DNA of 64,000 bases. Source: Siphonodentalium dalli. Lineage: Eukaryota > Mollusca > Scaphopoda > Gadilida > Siphonodentaliidae. The notes beneath the pieces are model-generated. The model saw nothing but the letters and a program-made list of their open reading frames with translations, had not been told where the DNA came from and searched no databases. The translations under genes and the position numbers were made by a program. This document shows, in pieces, positions 1 through 59,914 of this stretch; within the stretch, counting starts at the first letter, position 1, and each line of letters opens with the position of its first letter. Location: the NCBI GenBank assembly GCA_032622095.1, contig CP136061.1, positions 11,423,287-11,487,286 of the forward strand, written 5' to 3'.

Positions 1-3000
1 TGTGGTGAGGTACCGGTGTGTGTTTCTGTATTCGGCATTGTTCATGCATGTATCGTTGTGGTGAGGTACCGGTGGGTGTTTATGTATTCTACATTGTTCA
101 TGCCTGTATCGTTGTGGTGAGGTACCGGTGTGTATTTCTGTATTCTGCATTGTTCATGCCTGTATCGTTGTGGTGAGGTACCGGTGGGTGTTTCTGTATT
201 CTGCATTGTTCATGCCTGTATCGTTGTGGTGAGGTACCGGTGGGTGTTTCTGTATTCTGCATTGTTCATGCCTGTATTGTTGTGGTGAGGTACCGGTGGG
301 TGTTTCTGTATTCTACATTGTTCATGCCTGTATTGTTGTGGTGAGGTACCGGTGGGTGTTTCTGTATTCTGCATTGTTCATGTCTGTATCGTTGTGTTGA
401 GGTACCGGTTGGTGTTTCTGTATTCTGCATTGTTCATGCCTGTATCGTTGTGGTGAGGTACCGGTGGGTGTTTCTGTATTCTGCATTGTTCATGCCTGTA
501 TCGTTGTGGTGAGGTACCGGTTGGTGTTTCTGTATTCTGCATTGTTCATGCCTGTATCGTTGTGGTGAGGTACCGGTGGGTATTTCTGTATTCTGCATTG
601 TTCATGCCTGTATCGATGTGGTGAGGTACCGGTGGGTGTTTCTGTATTCTGCATTGTTCATGCCTGTATCGTTGTGGTGAGGTACCGGTGTGTATTTCTG
701 TATTCTGCATTGTTCATGCCTGTATCGTTGTGGTGAGGTACCGGTGGGTGTTTCTGTATTCTGCATTGTTCATGCCTGTATCGTTGTGGTGAGGTACCGG
801 TGGGTGTTTCTGTATTCTGCATTGTTCATGCCTGTATCGGTGTGGTGAGGTACCGGTGTGTGTTTCTGTATTCTGCATTGTTCATGCCCGTATCGTTGTG
901 GTGAGGTACCGGTGGGTATTTCTGTGTTCTGCATTGTTCATGTCTGTATCGTTGTGGTGAGGTACCGGTGGGTGTTTCTGTATTCTTCATTGTTCATGCC
1001 TGTATCGTTGTGGTGAGGTACCGGTGGGTGTTTCTGTATTCTGCATTGTTCATGCCTGTATCGTTGTGGTGAGGTACCGGTTGGTGTTTCTGTATTCTGC
1101 ATTGTTCATGCCTGTATCGTTGTGGTGAGGTACCGGTGAGTATTTCTGTATTCTGCATTGTTCATGCCTGTATCGTTGTGGTGAGGTACCGGTGGGTGTT
1201 TCTGTATTCTGCATTGTTCATGCCTGTATCGTTGTGGTGAGGTACCGGTGGGTGTTTCTGTATTCTGCATTGTTCATGCCTGTATCGTTGTGGTGAGGTA
1301 CCGGTGTGTATTTCTGTATTCTGCATTGTTCATGCCTGTATCGTTGTGGTGAGGTACCGGTGGGTGTTTCTGTATTCCGCATTGTTCATGCCTGTATCGA
1401 TGTGGTGAGGTACCGGTGTGTGTTTCTGTATTCTGCATTGTTCATGCCTGTATCGTTGTGGTGAGGTACCGGCGGGTGTTTCTGTATTCTGCATTGTTCA
1501 TGCCTGTATCGTTGTGGTGAGGTACCGGTTGGTGTTTCTGTATTCTGCATTGTTCATGCCTGTATCGTTGTGGTGAGGTACCGGTGAGTGTATCTGTATT
1601 CTGCATTGTTCATGCCTGTATCGTTGTGGTGAGGTACCGGTCTGTGTTTCTGTATTCTGCATTGTTCATGCCTGTATCGTTGTGGTGAGGTACCGGTGGG
1701 TGTTTCTGTATTCTGCATTGTTCATGCCTGTATCGTTGTGGTGAGGTACCGGTGGGTATTTCTGTATTCCGCATTGTTCATGTTTGTTTCGTTGTGGTGA
1801 GGTACCGGTGGGTGTTTCTGTATTCTGCATTGTTCATGCCTGTATCGTTGTGGTGAGGTACCGGTGGGTGTTTCTGTATTCTGCATTGTTCATGCCTGTA
1901 TCGATGTGGTGAGGTACCGGTGGATGTTTATGTATACTACATTGTTCATGCCTGTATCGTTGTGGTGAGGTACCGGTGGGAGTTTCTGTATTCCGCATTG
2001 TTCATGCCTGTATCGTTGTGGTGAGGTACCGTTGGGTGTTTCTGTATTCTGCATTGTTCATGCCTGTATCGTTGTGGTGAGGTACCGGTGGGTGTTTCTG
2101 TATTCTGCATTGTTCATGTCTGTATCGTTGTGGTGAGGTACCGGTAGGTGTTTCTGTATTCTGCATTGTTCATGTCTGTATCGTTGTGGTGAGGTACCGG
2201 TGGGTGTTTCTGTATTCTACATTGTTCATGCCTGTATCGTTGTGGTGAGGTACGGGTGGGTGTTTCTGTATTCTGCATTGTTCATGTCTGTATCGTTGTA
2301 GTGAGGTACCGGTGGGTGTTTCTGTATTCCGCATTGTTCATGCCTGTATCGTTGTGGTGAGGTACCGGTGGGTGTTTCTGTATTCTACATTGTTCATGTC
2401 TGTATCGTTGTGGTGAGGTACATGTGGGTGTTTCTGTATTCTGCATTGTTCATGCCTGTATCGTTGTGGTGAGGTACCGGTAGGTGTTTCTGTATTCTGC
2501 ATTGTTCATGTCTGTATCGTCGTGGTGAGGTACCGGTTGGTGTTTCTGTGTTCTGCATTGTTTATGCCTGTATCGATGTGGTGAGGTAAGGGTGGGTGTT
2601 TCTGTATTCTGCATTGTTCATGCCTGTATCGTTGTGGTGAGGTACCGGTGGGTGTTTCTGTATTCTACATTGTTCATGTCTGTATCGTTGTGGTGAGGTA
2701 CCGGTGGGTGTTTCTGTATTCTGCATTGTTCATGTCTGTATCGTCGTGGTGAGGTACCGGTGGGTATTTCTGTATTCCGCATTGTTCATGCCTGTATCGT
2801 TGTGGTGAGGTACCGGTGGGTGTTTCTGTATTCTACATTGTTCATGTCTGTATCGTTGTGGTGAGGTACCGGTGGGTGTTTCTGTATTCTGCATTGTTCA
2901 TGTCTGTATCGTTGTGGTGAGGTACCGGTGGGTATTTCTGTATTTTGCATTGTTCATGCCTGTATCGATGTGGTGAGGTACCGGTGTGTATTTCTGTATT

Positions 3001-6000
3001 ATGCATTGTTCATGCCTGTATCGTTGTGGTGAGGTACCGGTGGGTGTTTCTGTATTCTGCATTGTTCATGCCTGTATCGTTGTGGTGAGGTACCGGTGGG
3101 TGTTTCTGTATTCTGCATTGTTCATGCCTGTATTGTTGTGGTGAGGTACCGGTGGGTGTTTCTGTATTCTGCATTGTTCATGCCTGTATCGTTGTGGTGA
3201 GGTACCGGTGGGTGTTTCTGTATTCTGCATTGTTCATGCCTGTATCGTTGTGGTGAGGTACCGGTGGGTGTTTCTGTATTCTACATTGTTCATGCCTGTA
3301 TCGTTGTGGTGAGGTACCGGTGGGTGTTTCTGTATTCTGCATTGTTCATGACTGTATCGTTGTGGTGAGGTACCGGTGGGTGTTTCTGTATTCTGCATTG
3401 TTCATGCCTGTATCGTTGTGGTGAGGTACCGGTGGGTATTTCTGTATTCTGCATTGTTCATGCCTGTATCGTTGTGGTGAGGTACCGGAGTGTATTTCTG
3501 TATTCTGCATTGTTCATGCCTGTATCGTTGTGGTGAGGTACCGGTGGGTGTTTCTGTATTTTGCATTGTTCATGCCTGTATCGTTGTGGTGAGGTACCGG
3601 TGGGTGTTTCTGTATTCTGCATTGTTCATGCCTGTATCGTTGTGGTGAGGTACCGGTGGGTGTTTCTGTATTCAGCATTGTTCATGCCTGTATCGTTGTG
3701 GTGAGGTACCGGTGGGTGTTTATGTATTCTGCATTGTTCATGCCTGTATCGTTGTGGTGAGGTACCGGTGGGTGTTTCTGTATTCTGCATTGTTCATGCC
3801 TGTATCGTTGTGGTGAGGTACCGGTGGGTGTTTCTGTATTCTGCATTGTTCATGCCTGTATCGTTGTGGTGAGGTACCGGTGGGTGTTTATGTATTCTGC
3901 ATTGTTCATGCCTGTATCGTTGTGGTGAGGTACCGGTGGGTGTTTCTGTATTCTGCATTGTTCATGCCTGTATTGTTTTAGTGAGGTACCGGTGGGTGTT
4001 TCTGTATTCTGCATTGTTCATGCCTGTATCGTTGTGGTGAGGTACCGGTGGGTGTTTCTGTATTCTGCATTGTTCATGCCTGTATCGTTGTAGTGAGGTA
4101 CCGGTGGGTGTTTCTGTATTTTGCATTGTTCATGCCTGTATCGTTGTGGTGAGGTACCGGTGGGTGTTTCTGTATTCCGCATTGTTCATGCCTGTATCGT
4201 TGTAGTGAGGTACCGGTGGGTGTTTCTGTATTCTGCATTGTTCATGCCTGTATCGTTGTGGTGAGGTACCGGTTGGTGTTTCTGTATTCTGCATTGTTCA
4301 TGCCTGTATCGTTGTGGTGAGGTACCGGTGGGTGTTTCTGTATTCTGCATTGTTTATGCCTGTATCGTTGTGGTGAGGTACCGGTGGGTGTTTCTGTATT
4401 TTGCATTGTTCATGCCTGTATCGTTGTGGTGAGGTACCGGTGGGTGTTTCTGTATTCCGCATTGTTCATGCCTGTATCGTTGTGGTGAGGTACCGGTTGG
4501 TGTTTCTGTATTCTGCATTGTTCATGCCTGTATCGTTGTGGTGAGGAACCGGTGGGTGTTTCTGTATTCTGCATTGTTCATGCCTGTATCGTTGTGGTGA
4601 GGTACCGGTGGGTGTTTCTGTATTATGTATTGTTCATGCCTGTATCGTTGTGGTGAGGTACCGGTGGGTATTTCTGTATTCTGCATTGTTCATGCCTGTA
4701 TCGTTGTGGTGAGGTACCGGTGGGTGTTTCTGTATTATGCATTGTTCATGCCTGTATCGATGTGGTGAGGTACCGGTGGGTGTTTCTGTATTCCGCATTG
4801 TTCATGCCTGTATCGTTGTAGTGAGGTACCGGTGGGTGTTTCTGTATACTGCATTGTTCATGCCTGTATCGTTGTAGTGAGGTACCGGTGGGTGTTTCTG
4901 TATTCTGCATTGTTCATGCCTGTATCGTTGTGGTGAGGTACCGGTGGGTGTTTCTGTATTCTGCATTGTTCATGCCTGTATCGTTGTGGTGAGGTACCGG
5001 TGGGTGTTTCTGTATTCTGCATTGTTCATGCCTGTATCGTTGTGGTGAGGTAACGGTGGGTGTTTCTGTATTCTGCATTGTTCATGTCTGTATCGTTGTG
5101 GTGAGGTACCGGTGGGTGTTTCTGTATTCTGCATTGTTCATGCCTGTATCGTTGTGGTGAGGTACCGGTGGGTGTTTCTGTATTCTGCATTGTTCATGCC
5201 TGTATCGTTGTGGTGAGGTACCGGTGTGTATTTCTGTATTCTGCATTGTTCATGCCTGTATCGTTGTGGTGAGGTACCGGTGGGTGTTTCTGTATTCTGC
5301 ATTGTTCACGCCTGTATCGTTGTGGTGAGGTACCGGTGGGTGTTTCTGTATTCCGCATTGTTCATGCCTGTATCGTTGTGGTGAGGTACCGGTGTGAGTT
5401 TCTGTATTCTGCATTTTTCATGTCTGTATCGATGTGGTGAGGTACCGGTGGGTGTTTCTGTATTCTGCATTGTTCATGTCTGTATCGATGTGGTGAGGTA
5501 CCGGTGGGTGTTTCTGTATTCTGCATTGTTCATGCATGTATCGTTGTGGTGAGGTACTGGTGGGTGTTTCTGTATTCTGCATTGTTCATGCATGTATCGT
5601 TGTGGTGAGGTACCGGTGTGTATTTCTGTATTATGCATTGTTCATGCCTGTATCGTTCTGGTGAGGTACCGGTGGGTGTTTCTGTATTCTGCATTGTTCA
5701 TGTCTGTATCGTTGTGGTGAGGTACCGGTGGGTGTTTCTGTATTCGGCATTGTTCATGCCTGTATCGTTGTGGTGAGGTAACGGTGTGTATTTCTGTATT
5801 CTGCATTGTTCATGCCTGTATCGTTGTGGTGAGGTACCGGTGTGTATTTCTGTATTCTGCATTGTTCATGCCTGTATCGTTGTGGTGAGGTACCGGTGGG
5901 TGTTTCTGTATTATGCATTGTTCATGCCTGTATCGTTGTGGTGAGGTACCGGTGTGTGTTTCTGTATTCTGCATTGTTCATGCCTGTATCGTTGTGGTGA

Positions 6001-7059
6001 GGTACCGGTGTGTGTTTATGTATTCTGCATTGTTCATGCCTGTATCGTTGTGGTGAGGTACCGGTGGGTATTTCTGTATTCTGCATTGTTCATGCCTGTA
6101 TCGTTGTGGTGAGGTACCGGTGGGTGTTTCTGTATTATGCATTGTTCATGCCTGTATCGTTGTGGTGAGGTACCGGTGTGTATTTCTGTATTCTGCATTG
6201 TTCATGCCTGTATCGTTGTGGTGAGGTACCGGTTGGTGTTTATGTATTCCGCATTGTTCATGTCTGTATCGTTGTGGTGAGGTACCGGTGGGTGTTTCTG
6301 TATTCTGCATTGTTCATGCCTGTATCGTTGTGGTGAGGTACCGGTGTGTATTTCTGTATTCTGCATTGTTCATGCCTGTATCGTTGTGGTGAGGTACCGG
6401 TGGGTGTTTCTGTATTCTGCATTGTTCGTGCCTGTATCGTTGTGGTGAGGTACCGGTGTGTGTTTCTGTATTCTGCATTGTTCATGCCTGTATCGTTGTG
6501 GTGAGGTACCGGTGGGTGTTTCTGTATTCTGCATTGTTCATGCCTGTATCGTTGTGGTGAGGTACCGGTGGGTATTTCTGTATTCTGCATTGTTCACGCC
6601 TGTATCGTAGTGGTGAGGTACCGGTGGGTGTTTCTGTATTCTGCATTGTTCATGCCTGTATCGTTGTGGTGAGGTACCGGTGTGTGTTTCTGTATTCTGC
6701 ATTGTTCATGCCTGTATCGTTGTGGTGAGGTACCGGTGGGTGTTTCTGTGTTCTGCATTGTTCATGCCTGTATCGTTGTGGTGAGGTACCGGTTGGTGTT
6801 TCTGTATTCTGCATTGTTCATGCCTGTATCGTTGTGGTGAGGTACCGGTTGGTGTTTCTGTATTCTGCATTGTTCATGCCTGTATCGTTGTGGTGAGGTA
6901 CCGGTTGGTGTTTCTGTATTCTGCATTGTTCATGCCTGTATCGTTGTGGTGAGGTACCGGTGGGTATTTCTGTATTCTGCATTGTTCATGCCTGTATCGT
7001 TGTGGTGAGGTACCGGTTGGTGTTTCTGTATTCTGCATTGTTCATGCCTGTATCGTTGT

Positions 7060-8630
7060 GGTGAGGTACCGGTGGGTGTTTCTGTATTCTGCATTGTTCA
7101 TGCCTGTATCGTTGTGATGAGGTACCGGTGGGTGTTTCTGTATTCTGCATTGTTCATGCCTGTATCGTTGTGGTGAGGTACCGGTGGGTATTTCTGTATT
7201 CTGCATTGATCATGCCTGTATCGTTGTGGTGAGGTACCGGTGGGTGTTTCTGTATTCTGCATTGTTCATGCCTGTATCGTTGTGGTGAGGTACCGGTGGG
7301 TATTTCTGTATTCTGCATTGTTCATGCCTGTATCGTTGTGGTGAGGTACCGGTGGGTGTTTCTGTATTCTGCATTGTTCATGCCTGTATCGTTGTAGTGA
7401 GGTACCGGTGGGTGTTTCTGTATTCTGCATTGTTCATGCCTGTATCGTTGTGGTGAGGTACCGGTTGGTGTTTCTGTGTTCTGCATTGTTCATGCCTGTA
7501 TCGTTGTAGTGAGGTACCGGTGGGTGTTTCTGTATTCTGCATTGTTCATGCCTGTATCGTTGTGGTGAGGTACCGGTTGGTGTTTCTGTGTTCTGCATTG
7601 TTCATGCCTGTATCGTTGTGGTGAGGTACCGGTGGGTGTTTCTGTATTCTGCATTGTTCATGCCTGTATCGTTGTAGTGAGGTACCGGTGGGTGTTTCTG
7701 TATTCTGCATTGTTCATGCCTGTATCGTTGTGGTGAGGTACCGGTTGGTGTTTCTGTATTCTGCATTGTTCATGCCTGTATCGTTGTGGTGAGGTACCGG
7801 TGGGTGTTTCTGTATTCTGCATTGTTCATGCCTGTATCGTTGTGGTGAGGTACCGGTGGGTGTTTCTGTATTCTGCATTGTTCATGCCTGTATCGTTGTG
7901 GTGAGGTACCGGTGGGTGTTTCTGTATTCTGCATTGTTCATGCCTGTATCGTTGTGATGAGGTACCGGTGGGTGTTTCTGTATTCTGCATTGTTCATGCC
8001 TGTATCGTTGTGGTGAGGTACCGGTGGGTATTTCTGTATTCTGCATTGTTCATGCCTGTATCGTTGTGGTGAGGTACCGGTGGGTGTTTCTGTATTCTGC
8101 ATTGTTCATGCCTGTATCGTTGTGGTGAGGTACCGGTGGGTATTTCTGTATTCTGCATTGTTCATGCCTGTATCGTTGTGGTGAGGTACCGGTGGGTGTT
8201 TCTGTATTCTGCATTGTTCATGCCTGTATCGTTGTAGTGAGGTACCGGTGGGTGTTTCTGTATTCTGCATTGTTCATGCCTGTATCGTTGTGGTGAGGTA
8301 CCGGTTGGTGTTTCTGTGTTCTGCATTGTTCATGCCTGTATCGTTGTAGTGAGGTACCGGTGGGTGTTTCTGTATTCTGCATTGTTCATGCCTGTATCGT
8401 TGTGGTGAGGTACCGGTTGGTGTTTCTGTGTTCTGCATTGTTCATGCCTGTATCGTTGTGGTGAGGTACCGGTGGGTGTTTCTGTATTCTGCATTGTTCA
8501 TGCCTGTATCGTTGTAGTGAGGTACCGGTGGGTGTTTCTGTATTCTGCATTGTTCATGCCTGTATCGTTGTGGTGAGGTACCGGTTGGTGTTTCTGTATT
8601 CTGCATTGTTCATGCCTGTATCGTTGTGGT
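7060..8630 (+). repeat. 840-bp (15-monomer) tandem doublet inside the 56-bp array
   Basis: The marker GTTGTGATGA at 7111 recurs at 7951. The following GTTGTAGTGA markers at 7391, 7501 and 7671 recur at 8231, 8341 and 8511, all +840 bp. The GTTGG..TGTGTTC monomers between them also repeat in order. A private change in copy 1 (ATTGATCATG near 7207) shows that the copies have begun to diverge or that conversion was incomplete. Confidence 0.9.
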
Positions 8631-8965
8631 GAGGTACCGGTTGGTGTTTCTGTGTTCTGCATTGTTCATGCCTGTATCGTTGTGGTGAGGTACCGGTGGG
8701 TGTTTCTGTATTCTGCATTGTTCATGCCTGTATCGTTGTAGTGAGGTACCGGTGGGTGTTTCTGTATTCTGCATTGTTCATGCCTGTATCGTTGTGGTGA
8801 GGTACCGGTGGGTGTTTCTGTATTCTGCATTGTTCATGCCTGTATCGTTGTGGTGAGGTACCGGTTGGTGTTTCTGTATTCTGCATTGTTCATGCCTGTA
8901 TCGTTGTGGTGAGGTACCGGTGGGTGTTCTGTATTCGGCATTGTTCATGCCTGTATCGTTGTGGT
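7740..8965 (+). repeat. Long-range duplicated block, partner of 18435-19660
   Basis: The ordered variants match the block at 18435-19660 at a constant +10695 bp, which is 191 monomers minus 1 bp. Both blocks end with the same rare pair of changes in one monomer: loss of one T in the GTTTCTG run (about 8927 and 19622) and TTCGGC in place of TTCTGC. Sharing a rare indel plus a linked substitution makes independent origin unlikely. Upstream, 6735-7075 resembles 18157-18500 in the same way at about +11423 bp, so the distant copy looks like a version lacking one 840-bp unit. Confidence 0.85.
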
Positions 8966-9059
8966 GAGGTACCGGTGGGTATTTCTGTATTCTGCATTGT
9001 TCATGCCTGTATCGTTGTGGTGAGGTACCGGTGGGTGTTTCTGTATTCTGCATTGTTCA

Positions 9060-9780
9060 TGCCTGTATCGTTGTGGTGAGGTACCGGTGTGTATTTCTGT
9101 ATTCTGCATTGTTCATGCCAGTATCGTTGTCGTGAGGTACGGATGGGTGGTTCTGTATTCTGCATTGTTCATGCCTGTATCGTTGTGGTGAGGTACCGGT
9201 GTGTGTTTCTGTATTCCGCATTGTTCATGCCTGTATCGTTGTGGTGAGGTACCGGTTGGTGTTTCTGTATTCTGCATTGTTCATGCCTGTATCGTTGTGG
9301 TGAGGTACCGGTTGGTGTTTCTGTATTCTGCATTGTTCATGCCTGTATCGTTGTGGTGAGGTACCGGTGGGTGTTTCTGTATTCCGCATTGTTCATGCCT
9401 GTATCGTTGTGGTGAGGTACCGGTGGATGTTTCTGTATTCTGCATTGTTCATGCCTGTATCGTTGTGGTGAGGTACCGGTGTGTGTTTCTATATTATGCA
9501 TTGTTCATGCCTGTATCGTTGTGGTGAGGTACCGGTGGGTGTTTCTGTGATCTGCATTGTTCATGCCTGTATCGTTGTGGTGAGGTACCGGTGGGTGTTT
9601 CTGTATTCTGCATTGTTCATGCCTGTATCGTTGTGGTGAGGTACCGGTGGGTGTTTCTGTATTCTACATTGTTTATGCCTGTATCGTTGTGGTGAGGTAC
9701 CGGTGGGTGTTTCTGTGATCTGCATTGTTCATGCCTGTATCGTTGTGGTGAGGTACCGGTGGGTGTTTCTGTATACTGCA
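9060..9780 (+). repeat. Block with a distant partner at 27478-28200 (about 18.4 kb away)
   Basis: The rare combination ATGCCAGTATCG, GTCGTGAGG and TACGGATGGG at 9117-9150 is repeated at 27535-27568, +18418 bp. That is 329 monomers minus the 6 bp of deletions lying between. The match continues through GGTGGATG (9423 and 27785), CTATATTATGC (9489 and 27907), GTGATCTGC and CTACATTGTTTATG. One monomer has been lost and another gained on the way. Confidence 0.87.
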
Positions 9781-10750
9781 TTGTTCATGCCTGTATCGTT
9801 GTGGTGAGGTACCGGTGTGTGTTTCTGTATTCTGCATTGTTCATGCCTGTATCGTTGTGGTGAGGTACCGGTGTTTGTTTCTGTATTCTGCATTGTTCAT
9901 GCCTGTATCGTTGTGGTGAGGTACCGGTGGGTGTTTCTGTATTCTGCATTGTTCATGCCTGTATTGTTGTGGTGAGGTACCGGTTGGTGTTTCTGTATTC
10001 TGCATTGTTCATGCCTGTATCGTTGTGGTGAGGTACCGGTGGGTGTTTCTGTATTCTGCATTGTTCATGCCTGTATCGTTGTGGTGAGGTACCGGTGGGT
10101 GTTTCTGTATTCTGCATTGTTTATGCCTGTATCGTTGTGGTGAGGTACCGGTTGGTGTTTCTGTATTCTACATTGTTCATGCCTGTATCGTTGTGGTGAG
10201 GTACCGGTTGGTGTTTCTGTATTCTACATTGTTCATGCCTGTATCGTTGTGGTGAGGTACCGGTGTGTATTTCTGTATTCTGCATTGTTCATTCATGTAT
10301 CGTTGTGGTGAGGTACCGGTGGGTATTTCTGTATTCTGCATTGTTCATGTCTGTATCGTTGTGGTGAGGTACCGGTGGGTGTTTCTGTATTCTGCATTGT
10401 TCATGCCTGTATCGTTGTGGTGAGGTACCGGTGGGTGTTTCTGTATTCTGTATTGTTCATGCCTGTATCGTTGTGGTGAGGTACCGGTGGGTGTTTCTGT
10501 ATTCTGCATTGTTCATGCCTGTATCGTTGTGGTGAGGTACCGGTGGGAGTTTCTGTATTCTGCATTGTTCATGGCTGTATCGTTGTAGTGAGGTACCGGT
10601 GGGTGTTTCTGTATTCTGCATTGTTCATGCCTGTATCGTTGTGGTGAGGTACCGGTGGGTGTTTCTGTATTCTGCATTGTTCATGCCTGTATCGTTGTGG
10701 TGAGGTACCGGTTGGTGTTTCTGTATTCTGCATTGTTCATGCCTGTATCG

Positions 10751-13700
10751 TTGTAGTGGGGTACCGGTGGGTGTTTCTGTATTCTGCATTGTTCATGCCT
10801 GTATCGTTGTAGTGGGGTACCGGTTGGTGTTTCTGTATTCTACATTGTTCATGCCTGTATCGTTGTGGTGAGGTACCGGTGGGTGTTTCTGTATTCTGCA
10901 TTGTTCATGCCTGTATCGTTGTGGTGAGGTACCGGTGGGTGTTTCTGTGATCTGCATTGTTCATGCCTGTATCGTTGTGGTAAGGTACCGGTGGGTGTTT
11001 CTGTATTCTGCATTGTTCATGCCTGTATCGTTGTGGTGAGGTACCGGTGGGTGTTTCTGTATTCTGCATTGTTCATGCCTGTATCGTTGTGGTGAGGTAC
11101 CGGTGGGTGTTTCTGTATTCTGCATTGTTCATGCCTGTATCGTTGTGGTGAGGTACCGGTGGGTGTTTCTGTATTCTGCATTGTTCATGCCTGTATCGTT
11201 GTGGTGAGGTACCGGTGGGTGTTTCTGTATTCCGCATTGTTCATGCATGTATCGTTGTGGTGAGGTGCCGGTGGGTGTTTCTGTATTCTGCATTGTTCAT
11301 GCCTGTATCGTTGTGGTGAGGTACCGGTGGGTATTTCTGTATTCCGCATTGTTCATGCTTGTATCGTTGTGGTGAGGTACCGGTGTGTGTTTCTGTATTC
11401 TGCATTGTTCATGCCTGTATCGTTGTGGTGAGGTACCGGTGGGTATTTCTGTATTCCGCATTGTTCATGCATGTATCGTTGTGGTGAGGTACCGGTGTGT
11501 GTTTCTGTATTCCGCATTGTTCATGCTTGTATCGTTGTGGTGAGGTACCGGTGTGTGTTTCTGTATTCTGCATTGTTCATGCCTGTATCGTTGTGGTGAG
11601 GTACCGGTGGGTATTTCTGTATTCTGCATTGTTCATGCCTGTATCGTTGTGGTGAGGTACCGGTGGGTATTTCTGTATTCCGCATTGTTCATGCATGTAT
11701 CGTTGTGGTGATGTACCGGTGTGTGTTTCTGTATTCCGCATTGTTCATGCATGTATCGTTGTGGTGAGGTACCGGTGTGTGTTTCTGTATTCCGCATTGT
11801 TCATGCATGTATCGTTGTGGTGAGGTACCGGTGTGTGTTTCTGTATTCCGCATTGTTCATGCTTGTATCGTTGTGGTGAGGTACCGGTGTGTGTTTCTGT
11901 ATTCTGCATTGTTCATGCATGTATCGTTGTGGTGAGGTACCGGTGTGTGTTTCTGTATTCCGCATTGTTCATGCTTGTATCGTTGTGGTGAGGTACCGGT
12001 GGGTGTTTATGTATTCTGCATTGTTCATGCCTGTATCGTTGTGGTGAGGTACCGGTGGGTATTTCTGTATTCCGCATTGTTCATGCATGTATCGTTGTGG
12101 TGAGGTACCGGTGTGTGTTTCTGTATTCTGCATTGTTCATGCCTGTATCGTTGTGGTGAGGTACCGGTGGGTGTTTCTGTATTCTGCATTGTTCATGCCT
12201 GTATCGTTGTGGTGAGGTACCGGTGGGTGTTTCTGTATTATGCATTGTTCATGCCTGTATCGTTGTGGTGGGGTACCGGTGGGTGTTTCTGTATTCTGCA
12301 TTGTTCATGCCTGTATCGTTGTGGTGAGGTACCGGTGGGTGTTTCTGTATTCCGCATTGTTCATGCCTGTATCGTTGTGGTGAGGTACCGGTTGGTGTGT
12401 CTGTATTCTACATTGTTCATGCCTGTATCGTTGTGGTGAGGTACCGGTGTGTATTTCTGTATTCTGCATTGTTCTTGCCTGTATCGTTGTGGTGAGGTAC
12501 CGGTGTGTGTTTCTGTATTCCGCATTGTTCATGCCTGTATCGTTGTGGTGAGGTACCGGTGGGTATTTCTGTATTCTGTATTGTTCATGCCCGTATCGTT
12601 GTGGTGAGGTACCGGTGTGTATTTCTGTATTCTACATTGTTCATGCCTGTATCGTTGTGGTGAGGTACCGGTGGGTGTTTCTGTATTCTGCATTGTTCAT
12701 GTCTGTATCGTTGTGGTGCGGTACCGGTGGGTGTTTCTGTATTCTGCATTGTTCATGCCTGTATCGTTGTGGTGCGGTACCGGTGGGTGTTTCGGTATTC
12801 TGCATTGTTCATGCCTGTATCGTTGTGGTGAGGTACCGGTTGGTGTTTCTGTATTATGCATTGTTCATGCCTGTATCGATGTGGTGAGGTACCGGTGGGT
12901 ATTTCAGTATTCTGCATTGTTCATGCCTGTATCGTTGTGGTGAGGTACCGGTGGGTGTTTCTGTATTCTGCATTGTTCATGCCTGTATCGTTGTGGTGAG
13001 GTATCGGTGGGTATTTCTGTATTCTGCATTGTTCATGCCTGTATCGTTGTAGTGGGGTACCGGTGGGTGTTTCTGTATTCTGCATTGTTCATGCCTGTAT
13101 CGTTGTAGTGGGGTACCGGTTGGTGTTTCTGTATTCTACATTGTTCATGCCTGTATCGTTGTGGTGAGGTACCGGTGGGTGTTTCTGTATTCTGCATTGT
13201 TCATGCCTGTATCGTTGTGGTGAGGTACCGGTGGGTGTTTCTGTGATCTGCATTGTTCATGCCTGTATCGTTGTGGTAAGGTACCGGTGGGTGTTTCTGT
13301 ATTCTGCATTGTTCATGCCTGTATCGTTGTGGTGAGGTACCGGTGGGTGTTTCTGTATTCTGCATTGTTCATGCCTGTATCGTTGTGGTGAGGTACCGGT
13401 GGGTGTTTCTGTATTCTGCATTGTTCATGCCTGTATCGTTGTGGTGAGGTACCGGTGGGTGTTTCTGTATTCTGCATTGTTCATGCCTGTATCGTTGTGG
13501 TGAGGTACCGGTGGGTGTTTCTGTATTCCGCATTGTTCATGCATGTATCGTTGTGGTGAGGTGCCGGTGGGTGTTTCTGTATTCTGCATTGTTCATGCCT
13601 GTATCGTTGTGGTGAGGTACCGGTGGGTATTTCTGTATTCCGCATTGTTCATGCTTGTATCGTTGTGGTGAGGTACCGGTGTGTGTTTCTGTATTCTGCA

Positions 13701-41340: not shown

Positions 41341-41764
41341 TTTCTGTATTCTGCATTGTTCATGCCTGTATCGTTGTGGTGAGGTACCGGTGGGTGTTTC
41401 TGTATTCTGCATTGTTCATGCCTGTATCGTTGTGGTGAGGTACCGGTTGGTGTTTCTGTATTTTGCATTGTTCATGCCTGTATCGTTGTGGTGAGGTACC
41501 GGTGGGTGTTTCTGTATTCTGCATTGTTCATGCCTGTATCGTTGTGGTGAGGTACCGGTGGGTGTTTCTGTATTCTGCATTGTTCATGCCTGTATCGTTG
41601 TGGTGAGGTACCGGTTGGTGTTTCTGTATTTTGCATTGTTCATGCCTGTATCGTTGTGGTGAGGTACCGGTGGGTGTTTCTGTATTCTGCATTGTTCATG
41701 CCTGTATCGTTGTGGTGAGGTACCGGTGGGTGTTTATGTTTTCTGCATTGTTCATGCCTGTATC

Positions 41765-42725
41765 GTTGTCGTGAGGTACCGGTGGGTGTTTCTGTATTCT
41801 GCATTGTTCATGCCTGTATCGTTGTGGTGAGGTACCGGTTGGTGTTTCTGTATTCTGCATTGTTCATGCCTGTATCGTTGTGGTGAGGTACCGGTTCGTG
41901 TTTCTGTATTCCGCATTGTTCATGCCTGTATCGTTGTGGTGAGGTACCGGTGGGTGTTTCTGTATTCTGCATTGTTCATGCCTGTATCGTTGTGGTGAGG
42001 TACCGGTTGGTGTTTCTGTATTCTGCATTGTTCTTGCCTGTATCGTTGTGGTGAGGTACCGGTGGGTGTTTCTGTATTCTGCATTGTTCATGCCTGTATC
42101 GTTGTGGTGAGGTACCGGTGGGTGTTTCTGTATTTTGCATTGTTCATGCCTGTATCGTTGTCGTGAGGTACCGGTGGGTGTTTCTGTATTTTGCATTGTT
42201 CATGCCTGTATCGTTGTCGTGAGGTACCGGTGGGTGTTTCTGTATTCTGCATTGTTCATGCCTGTATCGTTGTGGTGAGGTACCGGTGGGTGTTTATGTT
42301 TTCTGCATTGTTCATGCCTGTATCGTTGTCGTGAGGTACCGGTGGGTGTTTCTGTATTCTGCATTGTTCATGCCTGTATCGTTGTGGTGAGGTACCGGTT
42401 GGTGTTTCTGTATTCTGCATTGTTCATGCCTGTATCGTTGTGGTGAGGTACCGGTTGGTGTTTCTGTATTCCGCATTGTTCATGCCTGTATCGTTGTGGT
42501 GAGGTACCGGTGGGTGTTTCTGTATTCTGCATTGTTCATGCCTGTATCGTTGTGGTGAGGTACCGGTTGGTGTTTCTGTATTCTGCATTGTTCTTGCCTG
42601 TATCGTTGTGGTGAGGTACCGGTGGGTGTTTCTGTATTCTGCATTGTTCATGCCTGTATCGTTGTCGTGAGGTACCGGTGGGTGTTTCTGTATTCTGCAT
42701 TGTTCATGCCTGTATCGTTGTGGTG
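41765..42725 (+). repeat. GTCGTGAGG-marked block, partner of 46858-47819, with an internal 560-bp doublet
   Basis: The unusual GTTTATGTTTTCTGC monomer followed by GTCGTGAGG occurs at 41731 and 42291 (+560 bp, 10 monomers) and again at 47384 (+5093 bp from the second). The stretch 41765-42725 matches 46858-47819 almost base for base. One visible difference is GGTTCGTG near 41893 against GGTTGGTG in the partner. The partner has also gained one G at about 47541. Confidence 0.9.
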
Positions 42726-42836
42726 AGGTACCGGTGGGTGTTTATGTATTCTGCATTGTTCATGCCTGTATCGTTGTGGTGAGGTACCGGTGGGTGTTTA
42801 TGTATTCTGCATTGTTCATGCCTGTATCGTTGTGGT

Positions 42837-44925
42837 GAGGTACCAGTGGGTATTTCTGTATTCTGCATTGTTCATGCCTGTATCGTTGTGGTGAGGTACC
42901 GTTTGGTGTTTCTGTATTCTGTATTGTTCATGCCTGTATCGTTGTGGTGAGGTACCGGTGGGTGTTTCTGTATTCTGCATTGTTCATGCCTGTATTGTTG
43001 TGGTGAGGTACCGGTTGGTGTTTCTGTATTCTGCATTGTTCATGCCTGTATCGTTATGGTGAGGTACCGGTGGGTGTTTCTGTATTCCGCATTGTTCATG
43101 CCTGTATCGTTGTGGTGAGGTACCGGTGGGTGTTTCTGTATTCCGCATTGTTCATGCCTGTATCGTTGTGGTGAGGTACCGGTGGGTGTTTCTGTATTCT
43201 GCATTGTTCATGCCTGTATCGTTGTGGTGAGGTACCGGTGGGTGTTTCTGTATTCTGCATTGTTCGTGCCTGTATCGATGTGGTGAGGTACCGGTGTGTG
43301 TTTCTGTATTCTGCATTGTTCATGCCTGTATCGTTGTGGTGAGGTACCGGTGGGTGTTTCTGTATTCTGCATTGTTCATGTCTGTATCGTTGTGGTGAGG
43401 TATCGGTGGGTGTTTCTGTATTCTGCATTGTTCATGCCTGTATCGTTGTGGTGAGGTACCGGTGGGTGTTTCTGTATTCTGCATTGTTCATGCCTGTATC
43501 GTTGTGGTGAGGTACCGGTGGGTGTTTCTGTATTCTGCATTGTTCATGCCTGTATCGTTGTGGTGAGGTACCGGTGGGTGTTTCTGTATTCTGCATTGTT
43601 CATGCCTGCATCGTTGTGGTGAGGTACCGGTGGGTGTTTCTGTATTCTGCATTGTTCGTGCCTGTATCGGTGTGGTGAGGTACCGGTGGTATTTCTGTAT
43701 TCTGCATTGTTCATGCCTGTATCGTTGTGGTGAGGTACCGGTTGGTGTTTCTGTATTCTACATTGTCCATGCCTGTATCGTTGTGGTGAGGTACCGGTGT
43801 GTGTTTCTGTATTCCGCATTGTTCATGCCTGTATCGTTGTGGTGAGGTATCGGTTGGTGTTTTTGTATTCTGCATTGTTCATGCCTGTATCGTTGTAGTG
43901 AGGTACCGGTTGGTGTTTATGTATTCTGCATTGTTCATGCCTGTATCGTTGTGGTGAGGTACCGGTGGGTGTTTCTGTATTCTGCATTGTTCATGCCTGT
44001 ATCGTTGTAGTGAGGTACCGGTTGGTGTTTCTGTATTCTGCATTGTTCATGCCTGTATCGTTGTGGTGAGGTACCGGTGGGTGTTTCTGTATTCTGCATT
44101 GTTCATGCCTGTATCGTTGTGGTGAGGTACCGGTGGGTGTTTCTGTATTCTGCATTGTTCATGCCTGTATCGTTGTGGTGAGGTACCGGTGGGTGTTTCT
44201 GTATTCTGCATTGTTCATGCCTGTATCGTTGTGGTGAGGTACCGGTGGGTGTTTCTGTATTCTGCATTGTTCATGCCTGTATCGTTGTGGTGAGGTACCG
44301 GTGGGTGTTTCTGTATTCTACATTGTTCATGCCTGTATCGTTGTGGTGAGGTACCGGTTGGTGTTTCTGTGTTCTGCATTGTTCATGCCTGTATCGTTGT
44401 GGTGAGGTACCGGTTGGTGTTTCTGTATTCTGCATTGTTCATGCCTGTATCGTTGTGGTGAGGTACCGGTTGGTATTTCTGTATTCCGCATTGTTCATGC
44501 CTGTATCGTTGTGGTGAGGTACCGGTGGGTGTTTCTGTATTCTGCATTGTTCATGCCTGTATCGTTGTGGTGAGGTACCGGTGGGTGTTTCTGTATTCTG
44601 CATTGTTCATGCCTGTATCGTTGTGGCGAGGTACCGGTGTGTGTTTCTGTATTCTGCATTGTTCATGCCTGTATCGTTGTGGTGGGGTACCGGTGTGTGT
44701 TTCTGTATTCTGCATTGTTCATGCCTGTATCGTTGTGGTGAGGTACCGGTTGGTGTTTCTGTATTATGCATTGTTCATGCCTGTATCGTTGTGGTGAGGT
44801 ACCGGTGTGTGTTTCTGTATTCTGCATTGTTCATGCCTGTATCGTTGTGGTGAGGTACCGGTTTGTGTTTATGTATTCCGCATTGTTCATGCCTGTATCG
44901 TTGTGGTGAGGTACCGGTGGGTGTT
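42837..44925 (+). repeat. About 2.1-kb block, partner of 39310-41340
   Basis: Second copy, with one additional 56-bp monomer near 44690 (GTGGGG followed by GTGTGTG). Private changes such as CCTGCATCG at about 43608 and TTGTCCATG at about 43764 distinguish it from the first copy. Confidence 0.9.
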
Positions 44926-45138
44926 TCTGTATTCTGCATTGTTCATGCCTGTATCGTTGTGGTGAGGTACCGGTTGGTGTTTCTGTATTTTGCATTGTTC
45001 ATGCCTGTATCGTTGTGGTGAGGTACCGGTGGGTGTTTCTGTATTCTGCATTGTTCATGCCTGTATCGTTGTGGTGAGGTACCGGTGGGTGTTTCTGTAT
45101 TCTGCATTGTTCATGCCTGTATCGTTGTGGTGAGGTAC

Positions 45139-46700
45139 CGGTTTGTGTTTATGTATTCCGCATTGTTCATGCCTGTATCGTTGTGGTGAGGTACCGGTGG
45201 GTGTTTCTGTATTCTGCATTGTTCATGCCTGTATCGTTGTGGTGAGGTACCGGTTGGTGTTTCTGTATTTTGCATTGTTCATGCCTGTATCGTTGTGGTG
45301 AGGTACCGGTGGGTGTTCTGTATTCTGCATTGTTCATGCCTGTATCGTTGTGGTGAGGTACCGGTTGGTGTTTCTGTATTTTGCATTGTTCATGCCTGTA
45401 TCGTTGTGGTGAGGTACTGGTTGGTGTTTCTGTATTCTGCATTGTTCATGCCTGTATCGTTGTGGTGAGGTACCGGTGGGTGTTCTGTATTCTGCATTGT
45501 TCATGCCTGTATCGTTGTGGTGAGGTACCGGTGGGTGTTTCTGTATTCTGCATTGTTCATGCCTGTATCGTTGTGGTGAGGTACCGGTGGGTGTTTCTGT
45601 ATTCTGCATTGTTCATGCCTGTATCGTTGTGGTGAGGTACCGGTTGGTGTTTCTGTATTTTGCATTGTTCATGCCTGTATCGTTGTGGTGAGGTACCGGT
45701 GGGTGTTTCTGTATTCTGCATTGTTCATGCCTGTATCGTTGTGGTGAGGTACCGGTGGGTGTTTCTGTATTCTGCATTGTTCATGCCTGTATCGTTGTGG
45801 TGAGGTACCGGTTTGTGTTTATGTATTCCGCATTGTTCATGCCTGTATCGTTGTGGTGAGGTACCGGTGGGTGTTTCTGTATTCTGCATTGTTCATGCCT
45901 GTATCGTTGTGGTGAGGTACCGGTGGGTATTTCTGTATTCTGCATTGTTCATGCCTGTATCGTTGTGGTGAGGTACCGGTGTGTGTTTCTGTATTCTACA
46001 TTGTTCATGCCTGTATCGTTGTGGTGAGGTACCGGTGGGTGTTTCTGTATTCTGCATTGTTCATGCCTGTATCGTTGTGGTGAGGTATCGGTTGGTGTTT
46101 CTGTATTCTGCATTGTTCATGCCTGTATCGTTGTGGTGAGGTACCGGTGGGTGTTTCTGTATTCTGCATTGTTCATGCCTGTATCGTTGTGGTGAGGTAC
46201 CGGTTGGTGTTTCTGTATTTTGCATTGTTCATGCCTGTATCGTTGTGGTGAGGTACCGGTGGGTGTTTCTGTATTCTGCATTGTTCATGCCTGTATCGTT
46301 GTGGTGAGGTACCGGTGGGTGTTTCTGTATTCTGCATTGTTCATGCCTGTATCGTTGTGGTGAGGTACCGGTTTGTGTTTATGTATTCCGCATTGTTCAT
46401 GCCTGTATCGTTGTGGTGAGGTACCGGTGGGTGTTTCTGTATTCTGCATTGTTCATGCCTGTATCGTTGTGGTGAGGTACCGGTTGGTGTTTCTGTATTT
46501 TGCATTGTTCATGCCTGTATCGTTGTGGTGAGGTACCGGTGGGTGTTTCTGTATTCTGCATTGTTCATGCCTGTATCGTTGTGGTGAGGTACCGGTGGGT
46601 GTTTCTGTATTCTGCATTGTTCATGCCTGTATCGTTGTGGTGAGGTACCGGTTGGTGTTTCTGTATTTTGCATTGTTCATGCCTGTATCGTTGTGGTGAG
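45139..46700 (+). repeat. Region of short (3-12 monomer) local re-duplications
   Basis: A GGTTTGTGTTTATG/TTCCGC monomer followed by GTGGG and GTTGG..TTTTGC monomers recurs near 44859, 45139, 45810 and 46370. Two monomers missing one T of the GTTTCTG run, at about 45315 and 45484, lie 3 monomers minus 1 bp apart. They are best explained as one deletion copied by a 3-monomer duplication. Confidence 0.75.
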
Positions 46701-46857
46701 GTACCGGTGGGTGTTTCTGTATTCTGCATTGTTCATGCCTGTATCGTTGTGGTGAGGTACCGGTTGGTGTTTCTGTATTCTGCATTGTTCATGCCTGTAT
46801 CGTTGTGGTGAGGTACCGGTTGGTGTTTCTGTATTTTGCATTGTTCATGCCTGTATC

Positions 46858-47819
46858 GTTGTCGTGAGGTACCGGTGGGTGTTTCTGTATTCTGCATTGT
46901 TCATGCCTGTATCGTTGTGGTGAGGTACCGGTTGGTGTTTCTGTATTCTGCATTGTTCATGCCTGTATCGTTGTGGTGAGGTACCGGTTGGTGTTTCTGT
47001 ATTCCGCATTGTTCATGCCTGTATCGTTGTGGTGAGGTACCGGTGGGTGTTTCTGTATTCTGCATTGTTCATGCCTGTATCGTTGTGGTGAGGTACCGGT
47101 TGGTGTTTCTGTATTCTGCATTGTTCTTGCCTGTATCGTTGTGGTGAGGTACCGGTGGGTGTTTCTGTATTCTGCATTGTTCATGCCTGTATCGTTGTGG
47201 TGAGGTACCGGTGGGTGTTTCTGTATTTTGCATTGTTCATGCCTGTATCGTTGTCGTGAGGTACCGGTGGGTGTTTCTGTATTTTGCATTGTTCATGCCT
47301 GTATCGTTGTCGTGAGGTACCGGTGGGTGTTTCTGTATTCTGCATTGTTCATGCCTGTATCGTTGTGGTGAGGTACCGGTGGGTGTTTATGTTTTCTGCA
47401 TTGTTCATGCCTGTATCGTTGTCGTGAGGTACCGGTGGGTGTTTCTGTATTCTGCATTGTTCATGCCTGTATCGTTGTGGTGAGGTACCGGTTGGTGTTT
47501 CTGTATTCTGCATTGTTCATGCCTGTATCGTTGTGGTGAGGGTACCGGTTGGTGTTTCTGTATTCCGCATTGTTCATGCCTGTATCGTTGTGGTGAGGTA
47601 CCGGTGGGTGTTTCTGTATTCTGCATTGTTCATGCCTGTATCGTTGTGGTGAGGTACCGGTTGGTGTTTCTGTATTCTGCATTGTTCTTGCCTGTATCGT
47701 TGTGGTGAGGTACCGGTGGGTGTTTCTGTATTCTGCATTGTTCATGCCTGTATCGTTGTCGTGAGGTACCGGTGGGTGTTTCTGTATTCTGCATTGTTCA
47801 TGCCTGTATCGTTGTGGTG
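46858..47819 (+). repeat. GTCGTGAGG-marked block, partner of 41765-42725
   Basis: Second copy. It contains the only net insertion seen in the whole array, GAGGGTACC at about 47541 instead of GAGGTACC. Confidence 0.9.
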
Positions 47820-47879
47820 AGGTACCGGTGGGTGTTTCTGTATTCTGCATTGTTCATGCCTGTATCGTTGTGGTGAGGT

Positions 47880-48520
47880 ACCGGTGGGTGTTTATGTATT
47901 CTGCATTGTTCATGCCTGTATCGTTATGGTGAGGTACCGGTGGGTGTTTCTGTATTCCGCATTGTTCATGCCTGTATCGTTGTGGTGAGGTACCGGTGGG
48001 TGTTTCTGTATTCCGCATTGTTCATGCCTGTATCGTTGTGGTGAGGTACCGGTGGGTGTTTATGTATTCTGCATTGTTCATGCCTGTATCGTTGTGGTGA
48101 GGTACCGGTGGGTGTTTATGTATTCTGCATTGTTCATGCCTGTATCGTTGTGGTGAGGTACCGGTGGGTGTTTATGTATTCTGCATTGTTCATGCCTGTA
48201 TCGTTGTGGTGAGGTACCGGCGGGTGTTTCTGTATTCTGCATTGTTCATGCCTGTATCGTTGTGGTGAGGTACCGGTGGGTGTTTCTGTATTCTGCATTG
48301 TTCATGCCTGTATCGTTGTGGTGAGGTACCGGTGGGTGTTTATGTATTCTGCATTGTTCATGCCTGTATCGTTATGGTGAGGTACCGGTGGGTGTTTCTG
48401 TATTCCGCATTGTTCATGCCTGTATCGTTGTGGTGAGGTACCGGTGGGTGTTTCTGTATTCCGCATTGTTCATGCCTGTATCGTTGTGGTGAGGTACCGG
48501 TGGGTGTTTCTGTATTCTGC
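47880..48520 (+). repeat. 448-bp (8-monomer) duplication inside the 56-bp array
   Basis: A GTTTATG monomer, then ATCGTTATGG and two TTCCGC monomers, occurs with ATCGTTATGG at 47922 and again at 48370, +448 bp. Confidence 0.82.
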
Positions 48521-49519
48521 ATTGTTCATGCCTGTATCGTTGTGGTGAGGTACCGGTGGGTGTTTCTGTATTCTGCATTGTTCATGCCTGTATCGATGTG
48601 GTGAGGTACCGGTAGGTGTTTCTGTATTCTGCATTGTTCATGCCTGTATCGTTGTGGTGAGGTACCGGTGGGTGTTTCTGTATTCTGCATTGTTCATGCC
48701 TGTATCGTTGTGGTGAGGTACCGGTGTGTGTTTATGTATTCTGCATTGTTCATGCCTGTATCGTTGTGGTGAGGTACCGGTGGGTGTTTCTGTATTCTGC
48801 ATTGTTCGTGCCTGTATCGATGTGGTGAGGTACCGGTGTGTGTTTATGTATTCTGCATTGTTCATGCCTGTATCGTTGTGGTGAGGTACCGGTGGGTATT
48901 TCTGTATTCTGCATTGTTCATGCCTGTATCGATGTAGTGAGGTACCGGTGGGTGTTTATGTATTCTGCATTGTTCATGCCTGTATCGTTGTGGTGAGGCA
49001 CCGGTGGGTGTTTCTGTATTCTGCATTGTTCAAGCCTGTATCGTTGTGGTGAGGTACCGGTGGGTGTTTCTGTATTCTGCATTGTTCATGCCTGTATCGT
49101 TGTGGTGAGGTACCGGTGGGTGTTTCTGTATTCCGCATTGTTCATGCCTGTATCGTTGTGGTGAGGTACCGGTGGGTGTGTCTGTATGCTGCATTGTTCA
49201 TGCCTGTATCGTTGTAGTGAGGTACCGGTAGGTGTTTATGTATTCTGCATTGTTCATGCCTGTATCGTTCTGGTGAGGTACCGGTGGGTGTTTCTGTATT
49301 CTGCATTGTTCATGCCTGTATCGTTGTGGTGAGGTACCGGTAGGTATTTCTGTATTCTGCATTGTTCATGCCTGTATCGTTGTGGTGGGGTACAGGTGGG
49401 TGTTTCTGTATTCTGCATTGTTCATGTCTGTATCGTTGTGGTGAGGTACCGGTTGGTATTTCTGTATTCCGCATTGTTCATGCCTGTATCGTTGTGGTGA
49501 GGTACCGGTGGGTGTTTCT

Positions 49520-50730
49520 GTATTCTGCATTGTTCATGTCTGTATCGTTGTAGTGAGGTACCGGTGTGTATTTCTGTATTCTGCATTGTTTATGCCTGTA
49601 TCGTTGTGGTGGGGTACCGGTGGGTGTTTCTGTATTCTGCATTGTTCATGCCTGTATCGTTGTGGTGAGGTACCGGTGGGAGTTTCTGTATTCTGCATTG
49701 TTCATGCCTGTATCGTTGTGGTGAGGTACCGGTGGGTATTTCTGTATTCTGCATTGTTCATGCCTGTATCGTTGTGGTGAGGTACCGGTGGGTGTTTCTG
49801 TATGCTGCATTGTTCATGCATGTATCGTTGTGGTGAGGTACCGGTGTGTGTTTCTGTATTCTGCATTGTTCATGCCTGTATCGGTGTGGTGAGGTACCGG
49901 TGGGTATTTCTGTATTCTGCATTGTTCATGCCTGTATCGTTGTGGTGAGGTACCGGTGGGTGTTTCTGTATTCTGCATTGTTCATGCCTGTATCGTTGTG
50001 GTGAGGTACCGGTGTGTATTTCTGTATTCTGCATTGTTCATGTCTGTATCGTTGTGGTGAGGTACCGGTGGGTGTTTCTGTATTCTGCATTGTTCATGCC
50101 TGTATCGTTGTGGTGAGGTACCGGTGTGTATTTCTGTATTCTGCATTGTTCATGTCTGTATCGTTGTAGTGAGGTACCGGTGGGTGTTTCTGTATTCCGC
50201 ATTGTTCATGCCTGTATCGTTGTGGTGAGGTACCGGTGTGTGTTTCTGTATTCTGCATTGTTCATGTCTGTATCGTTGTGGTGAGGTACCGGTGGGAGTT
50301 TCTGTATTCTGCATTGTTCATGCCTGTATCGTTGTGGTGAGGTACCGGTGGGTATTTCTGTATTCTGCATTGTTCATGTCTGTATCGTTGTAGTGAGGTA
50401 CCGGTGTGTATTTCTGTATTCTGCATTGTTTATGCCTGTATCGTTGTGGTGGGGTACCGGTGGGTGTTTCTGTATTCTGCATTGTTCATGCCTGTATCGT
50501 TGTGGTGAGGTACCGGTGGGAGTTTCTGTATTCTGCATTGTTCATGCCTGTATCGTTGTGGTGAGGTACCGGTGGGTATTTCTGTATTCTGCATTGTTCA
50601 TGCCTGTATCGTTGTGGTGAGGTACCGGTGGGTGTTTCTGTATGCTGCATTGTTCATGCATGTATCGTTGTGGTGAGGTACCGGTGTGTGTTTCTGTATT
50701 CTGCATTGTTCATGCCTGTATCGGTGTGGT
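49520..50730 (+). repeat. 840-bp (15-monomer) duplication inside the 56-bp array
   Basis: The ordered series GTAGTG / GTGTGTATTTC / GTTTATGCC / GTGGGGTACC / GGGAGTTTC / TATGCTGC / ATGCATG / ATCGGTG at 49520-49890 recurs at 50360-50730, exactly +840 bp. The copies are identical as far as I can read. They are separated by about 8 monomers of different pattern. Confidence 0.88.
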
Positions 50731-52935
50731 GAGGTACCGGTGTGTATTTCTGTATTCTGCATTGTTCATGTCTGTATCGTTGTGGTGAGGTACTGGTGGG
50801 TGTTTCTGTATTCTGCATTGTTCATGCCTGTATCGTTGTGGTGAGGTACCGGTGGGTGTTTCTGTATTCTGCATTGTTCATGCCTGTATCGTTGTGGTGA
50901 GGTACCGGTGGGTGTTTCTGTATTCTGCATTGTTCATGCCTGTATCGTTGTGGTGAGGTACCGGTGGGTGTTTCTGTATTCTGCATTGTTCATGCCTGTA
51001 TCGTTGTGGTGAAGTACCTGTGGGTGTTTCTGTGTTCTGCATTGTTCATGCCTGTATCGTTGTGGTGAGGTACCGGTGGGTGTTTCTGTATTCTGCATTG
51101 TTCATGCATGTATCGTTGTGGTGAGGTACCGGTGGGTGTTTCTGTATTCTGCATTGTTCATGCCTGTATCGTTGTGGTGAGGTACCGGTGGGTGTTTCTG
51201 TATTCTGCATTGTTCATGCCTGTATCGTTGTGGTGAGGTACCGGTGGGTGTTTCTGTATTCTGCATTGTTCATGCCTGTATTGTTGTGGTGAGGTACCGG
51301 TGGGTGTTTCTGTATTCTGCATTGTTCATGCCTGTATCGTTGTGGTGAGGTACCGGTGGGTGTTTCTGTATTCGGCATTGTTCATGCCTGTATCGTTGTG
51401 GTGAAGTACCGGTGGGTGTTTCTGTATTCTGCATTGTTCATGCCTGTATCGTTGTGGTGAGGTACCGGTTGGTGTTTCTGTATTCTGCATTGTTCATGCC
51501 TGTATCGTTGTGGTGAGGTACCGGTGGGTGTTTATGTATTCTGCATTGTTCATGCCTGTATCGTTGTGGTGAGGTACCGGTGGGTGTTTCTGTATTCTGC
51601 ATTGTTCATGCCTGTAGCGTTGTGGTGAGGTACCGGTTGGTGTTTCTGTATTCTGCATTGTTCATGCCTGTATCGTTGTGGTGAAGTACCGGTGGGTGTT
51701 TCTGTGTTCTGCATTGTTCATGCCTGTATCGTTGTGGTGAGGTACCGGTGGGTTTTTCTGTATTCCGCATTGTTCATGCCTGTATCGTTGTGGTGAGGTA
51801 CCGGTGGGTGTTTCTGTATTCTGCATTGTTCATGCCTGTATCGATGTGGTGAGGTACCGGTTGGTGTTTCTGTATTCTGCATTGTTCATGCCTGTATCGT
51901 TGTGGTGAGGTACCGGTGTGTGTTTCTGTATTCTGCATTGTTCATGCCTGTATCGTTGTGGTGAGGTACCGGTGGGTGTTTCTGTATTCTGCATTGTTCA
52001 TGCCTGTATCGTTGTGGTGAGGTACCGGTGGGTGTTTCTGTATTATGCATTGTTCATGCCTGTATCGTTGTGGTGAGGTACCGGTGGGTGTTTATGTATT
52101 CTGCATTGTTCATGCCTGTATCGTTGTGGTGAGGTACCGGTGGGTGTTTCTGTATCCTGCATTGTTCATGCCTGTATCGTTGTGGTGAGGTACCGGTGGG
52201 TGTTTATGTATTCTGCATTGTTCATGCCTGTATCGTTGTGGTGAGGTACCGGTGGGTGTTTCTGTATTCTGCATTGTTCATGCCTGTATCGTTGTGGTGA
52301 GGTACCGGTGGGTGTTTCTGTATTCTGCATTGTTCATGCCTGTATCGATGTGGTGAGGTACCGGTGGGTGTTTCTGTGTTCTGCATTGTTCATGCCTGTA
52401 TCGTTGTGGTGAGGTACCGGTGGGTGTTTATGTATTCTGCATTGTTCATGCCTGTATCGTTGTGGTGAGGTACCGGTGGGTGTTTCTGTATTCTGCATTG
52501 TTCATGCCTGTATCGTTGTGGTGAGGTACCGGTGGGTGTTTCTGTATTCTGCATTGTTCATGCCTGTATCGTTGTGGTGAGGTACCGGTTGGTGTTTCTG
52601 TATTCTGCATTGTTCATGCCTGTATCGTTGTGGTGAGGTACCGGTGGGTGTTTCTGTATTCTGCATTGTTCATGCCTGTATCGTTGTGGTGAGGTACCGG
52701 TGGGTGTTTCTGTATTCTGCATTGTTCATGCCTGTATCGTTGTGGTGAGGTACCGGTGGGTGTTTCTGTATTCTGCATTGTTCATTCATTTATCGTTGTG
52801 GTGAGGTACCGGTGGGTGTTTCTGTGTTCTGCATTGTTCATGCCTGTATCGTTGTGGTGAGGTACCGGTTGGTATTTCTGTATTCCGCATTGTTCATGCC
52901 TGTATCGATGTGGTGAGGTACGGGTGGGTGTTTCT

Positions 52936-59904: not shown

Positions 59905-59914
59905 CCACTATATA

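Follow-up and report, generated by a model that had tools for sequence, protein, structure and literature searches.

The 56-bp satellite studied here has very probably grown in place from a leader segment of one dead retrotransposon copy on contig C1. Its monomer is homologous to the leader of a dispersed element, the arrays lie in register with that element, blocks of several units are duplicated within the array, and close copies are confined to C1. We analysed a window of 64,000 nucleotides (G000:C1:11423287-11487286) together with its surroundings in a 2.23-Gb assembly of nine contigs, of which C1 measures 277 Mb.

Positions 1-52935 of the window form a tandem array of the 56-bp unit with 945.5 copies and 95% matches (TRF). 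This is the right-hand third of what we call array 1, and it lies on the + strand, which is the strand of the parent retrotransposon. The array is unbroken, has a single orientation and contains no foreign insert, just as the first-pass annotation had described it (945 units). Cyclic alignment of the window array to its consensus gives 2.4% mismatches, 13 deleted bases and one inserted base. Exactly ten monomers are length variants (starting near 8905, 19600, 20495, 22230, 36170, 40144, 43671, 45294, 45461 and 47532), and their net change of -12 bases recovers the indel ledger of ten variants drawn up in that annotation. A head-to-tail array of 945.5 non-coding monomers in the window is satellite DNA, and chance is not an issue as an explanation for a 56-bp array of such length. 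The earlier extent of "at least 53 kb" described a true long satellite, but 53 kb is only about one third of array 1. Likewise, the array was correctly followed to 52935, but the stop at this position is a 100-N assembly gap (52936-53035), which had been overlooked, and no biological edge of the array. The next assembled piece opens with an 18-bp minisatellite unrelated to the satellite (53036-54130), and its adjacency to the array is only scaffolded.

Array 1 begins upstream of the window, at C1:11326520 (position 3234 of the left-flank locus L034), and measures ~149.7 kb from this left edge to the gap, or ~2,673 units by length. We read 89.7 kb of it directly; in the other 60 kb (C1:11333287-11373286 and 11383287-11403286), satellite is indicated by pattern matches and the total count. 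The true right end of array 1 was not found in the assembly; a junction of the type expected there, with satellite-type bases, occurs once, and this is at a second array. Array 2 (~121.9 kb, ~2,170 units) is located 0.7 Mb from array 1 on the same contig and strand and has the same left flank; it was read directly at its right end only, and its continuity rests on the total match count.

An exact 202-bp pattern has 45 matches in the assembly, all on the + strand, 26 of them in array 1 and 19 at C1:12048535-12161759, with no match on the other eight contigs. Array 2 includes a stretch of ~50 kb without any exact 202-bp match. With up to 3 mismatches, a 55-bp unit has 4580 forward and 0 reverse matches in the whole assembly. 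Since 95.9% of the units in directly read stretches match at that threshold, the 4580 matches correspond to ~267 kb, and ~4650 would be expected from both spans (271.6 kb / 56 x 0.959). The agreement between ~267 kb of matches and ~272 kb of spans leaves little room for close copies elsewhere or for large foreign stretches inside the arrays. Close copies thus amount to ~0.012% of the 2.23-Gb assembly, about all of it accounted for by the two arrays; it should be noted that these counts are of units with at most 3 mismatches over 55 bases, and that strongly diverged relatives beyond the element copies would escape them.

The presence of two arrays might be due to segmental duplication or to unmerged alleles. 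In the latter case, array 2 would be the other allele and no second locus, and part of the assembled length would be artefactual; this is compatible with growth in place, and we regard it as a serious possibility without quite favouring it. Array 1 ends at a gap and only one right junction was found, as would fit alleles. Furthermore, the two arrays have their left flank in common (bases 1-409 of the 411-bp query described below; 2137 left-flank bases at 93%). The query alignment includes a net gap of 34 bases, consistent with two units of a 17-bp repeat. The right flank at window 61640-63640 is also present in inverted orientation at C1:12660704-12662821, with 94-99% identity. Nevertheless, the flanks differ by a stretch of ~12.5 kb, and for a 3-kb piece located 100 kb upstream of array 1, the 40 places scored are all dispersed repeats, with no long second copy among them. 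Array 1 is also not a copy of few units: we found 328 distinct unit types among 1302 units. These observations are compatible with alleles as well. We advance only tentatively the full proposition that a segment that is not tandem in the parent element gave rise to the satellite in a single dead copy, with the two arrays (>149.7 kb and ~121.9 kb) being alleles of one locus. If they are alleles, a single locus would be highly length-variable on a 100-kb scale before any spread, and births and losses of 56-bp units could be counted.

The 18-bp minisatellite next to the gap also has an inverted second copy, at C1:12667671-12668980. The window contains 3 exact 58-bp matches to it and the inverted copy contains 14, indicating that the length or the homogeneity of the 18-bp array differs between the two copies. 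Window 54431-61500 holds repeated near-perfect palindromes that are MITE-like, with arms of ~80 bp and up to 99% complementarity; the same palindromic sequence is present in an open reading frame relic by array 2 (L058:741-800) and, as judged by eye, in the left flank of array 1 (L034). Within the same part of the window we found a 19-bp array, GATCCTACCCTTATTACAT, at 55188-55794 (32 copies, 97% matches), and at 59252-59904 a tandem repeat of 163 bp (3.5 copies) with an ACGG-type repeat behind it, an arrangement that resembles dispersed invertebrate repeats. Array 1 is preceded, at a distance of ~420 bp from its left edge, by an interstitial telomere-like stretch, (AACCCT)x10.7 (L034:2753-2816). 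On another contig, the first 10 kb of C2 (L050, G000:C2:1-10000) are one 26-bp tandem array, TAGTTAGTCTTCTGTACGCGTAGTAT, of 384.8 copies with 92% matches, which is a candidate for a terminal or major satellite.

The parent element was identified with a 411-bp query comprising the left flank and the first monomer (L034:2880-3290), for which 40 of 1751 candidates were scored. Two of these are the array edges, and the other 38 are distributed over all nine contigs with 69-81% identity. The monomer starts at query base 355, and 28 of the 38 copies align past base 385 and thus into the monomer (22 in one piece and 6 with a second piece). We read seven element copies, and all of them consist of leader, one monomer-like segment and more leader, after which the element sequence continues; over 43-55 bases, the segment and the satellite consensus are 78-83% identical. 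The satellite monomer is thus homologous to a dispersed element in 28 of 38 scored copies and in all seven that were read. The ancestral segment of ~54 bp, GTGTTGAATCC...GGTACCGGGAGG (limits set by hand), is situated in the 5' leader before ORF1, and the leader sequence expected past the right end of array 1 is GGGAGGCTGCTA... Six of the seven copies run into the same gene start, often with broken frames (MATQTKKQRLAR... is open in copy L053), whereas L055 diverges soon after the ATG.

The same leader contains a second, smaller repeat, which forms a tandem of 17 bp x 3.1 beside array 1 (L034:3092-3144). This 17-19 bp repeat has three copies at array 1 and probably one at array 2 (net gap 34 bases), and a separate element copy, L051, shows a three-fold run of it. 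Tandem duplication thus seems to occur readily in the leader of this element.

Growth of the array inside the element predicts that, at the right end, the last satellite unit borders immediately on the remaining leader. The junction pattern with satellite-type bases on its left side matches 13 places in the genome at up to 3 mismatches. The sole 2-mismatch match, C1:12162982-12163022, is the right end of array 2 and adjoins the last listed array-2 match. At the diagnostic position, 11 of the twelve places with 3 mismatches have TGTCTC, as in the element, and the remaining one (C2:35841178) has TGTATCG, by pattern match.

At the array-2 junction (L058), the last two units are followed by ~36 bp of leader. 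The last unit and the leader together are 82-85% identical to five of the seven copies, and 81% and 78% to the other two. After the leader, L058 has a deletion of ~138 bp relative to copy L052, and the ORF1 sequence past the deletion is 73-75% identical to five of the seven copies and 65% to L057, with no similarity to L055. This ORF1 relic contains stops and a nested palindromic repeat and has a knuckle-like motif, CFNCQGYSHGQ, at its end, which looks CCHC-like by eye. Differences between L058 and the five copies at codon positions 1, 2 and 3 sum to 93, 56 and 159, respectively (the five comparisons are not independent), which indicates that the relic was once a coding frame; among the five copies themselves, the bias is weaker, with strictly most differences at the third position in 7 of 10 pairs. 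Both arrays are in register with the element at their left edge, and array 2 is also in register at its right edge via the predicted junction, so that it is bracketed on both sides by one dead element copy.

Judging from the layout of leader and ORF1, the codon bias and motifs, the element is probably a LINE-type (non-LTR) retrotransposon, and its ORF1 may resemble Jockey-type proteins. Pfam returned no match for the ORF1 pieces, and no RVT_1 match lies within 10 kb of a listed element copy among the 150 scored of 38,730 candidates, which were compared by eye; the nearest scored match is ~24 kb away from a listed copy, on the upstream side, on C2. Type I ORF1 proteins with RRM and CCHC are described for I, Jockey and related clades (PMC4120745). 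The present element resembles these LINEs in having a leader followed by ORF1 and in the knuckle-like motif that ends the array-2 relic, but differs in that its ORF1 has no Pfam match and no reverse transcriptase is linked to it.

Tandem monomers are known from the leaders of LINEs: mouse L1 carries its own, and other LINEs have them as well. The leader of a retrotransposon subfamily could thus already have contained 56-bp monomers in tandem, and the array would then have expanded from this short tandem. The small tandem in the leader beside array 1 and the three-fold run in L051 are in line with such an origin. We nevertheless consider it unlikely, since the segment is single in each of the seven copies that were read, out of 38 scored copies and 1751 candidates, since a dimer pattern of the element type occurs at 0 places in the genome (exact pattern, searched without a positive control), and since the counts are explained without satellite-like units outside C1.

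The internal structure of the array is what repeated tandem duplication of blocks would leave, with blocks that reach at least 33 units. It contains 31 exact repeated runs of at least six whole units, the longest of which covers 33 units (1848 bp, 23 distinct unit types) and is located at window 10752 and 13048. When the unit order was shuffled 50 times, such runs numbered 0.04 on average and the longest comprised 6 units, and this difference points to homogenisation by multi-unit exchange. The repeated runs occur at lags of 3 to 206 units. A higher-order repeat was considered and rejected, as there is no global higher-order period in the array; among the larger lags 41 stands out, which is also the lag of the 33-unit run. 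Neighbouring units are 95.9% alike compared with a median of 95.6%; similarity thus hardly falls with distance, which calls for some mixing over long range. Of the first 40 units at the left edge, unit 3 has 5 changes and unit 4 has 2, and none of the remaining units has more than 3. The duplications might be due to unequal exchange or to replication slippage.

We propose that a dispersed element, probably of LINE type, carried a single segment of ~54 bp in its 5' leader, and that in one copy on C1 this segment was tandemly duplicated to give the 56-bp unit. Growth in place would have produced ~2,670 units or more in array 1 and ~2,170 units in array 2, and growth and homogenisation may be ongoing via duplication of multi-unit blocks, by unequal exchange or replication-based misalignment. 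The two arrays would either descend from one expanded copy by duplication or represent two alleles. In this scheme, we infer the recombination mechanism and the absence of a host function.

A coding function was rejected, as a unit of 56 bp is not divisible by 3 and stops are present on both strands of the consensus. The longest open reading frame wholly inside the array encodes 129 amino acids, and three listed frames (111, 106 and 243 amino acids) cross the N gap into the next array. We also rejected an RNA function: Rfam gave no match for window 1-2000 at E up to 1 or for window 52800-64000 at the gathering score, and the single-strand DNA fold of two units is nothing unusual (z -0.51).

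The first-pass annotation had suggested a major chromosomal satellite (centromeric, pericentromeric or subtelomeric); in this case, the assembly would contain only a piece of it. Satellite arrays are often missing from assemblies and long contigs, and the length, homogeneity and single orientation of the array would suit this proposal. However, a major satellite would be found on many chromosomes or make up a large share of the genome, whereas all 45 exact 202-bp matches fall into two clusters on C1 that together represent the ~0.012% given above. Moreover, these are located at 11.3-12.2 Mb of a 277-Mb contig, and the array ends inside one dead element, which makes a major satellite very unlikely. 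The search of the monomer against its parent genome, which had been suggested as a check, led to one chromosomal region and to a transposon; within the assembly, this is largely the outcome that had been named as speaking against the proposal. No CENP-B box was seen by eye in the monomer, and no named 56-bp satellite was found in the literature (titles and abstract openings, and one open library). Finally, satellite DNA is known in circular form, but arrival of the array from elsewhere, e.g., as extrachromosomal circular DNA inserted into the element, is extremely improbable and, given the in-register ends, close to refuted, since the element's own segment is the first and last unit with element sequence on both sides and no donor array is present among the satellite matches.

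How satellites arise must often be reconstructed from old and scattered relics. In the present assembly, one can see the parent element, the ancestral segment in single copy, the interrupted element copy on either side, and the expanded array. This permits direct study of the first step and of the unit of growth, and would allow array length to be compared between animals at one defined locus. We are most likely looking at satellite DNA close to its birthplace rather than at a major centromere repeat.

Satellites derived from pieces of transposons are already known, and the present array is a clean new example. A 2025 review names untranslated regions of LINEs as satellite sources (PMC12628747). 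In Lathyrus sativus, long satellites have formed from short tandem repeats in the 3' UTR of Ogre LTR elements; the study reports nine satellites of this kind, with expansion mainly in the primary constrictions (Vondrak et al., PMC7004042). The two systems share long arrays made from a piece of a dispersed retrotransposon, and the Lathyrus elements are dispersed with mostly short arrays (PMC7004042). In the present case, the source is a leader segment, single in the seven copies read, and one chromosome region is expanded. The LINE-derived satellites described in PMC9659126 include the common cetacean satellite (L1 3' end), chicken HinfI (CR1) and PROsat (L1 ORF2). As in the present case, their monomers have sequence in common with a LINE, but they derive from the 3' part or ORF2, and ours from the 5' leader. 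What is particular here is that a leader segment present in single copy (seven copies read) is expanded in one region, and that the host element copy is preserved to the left and right of the expansion.
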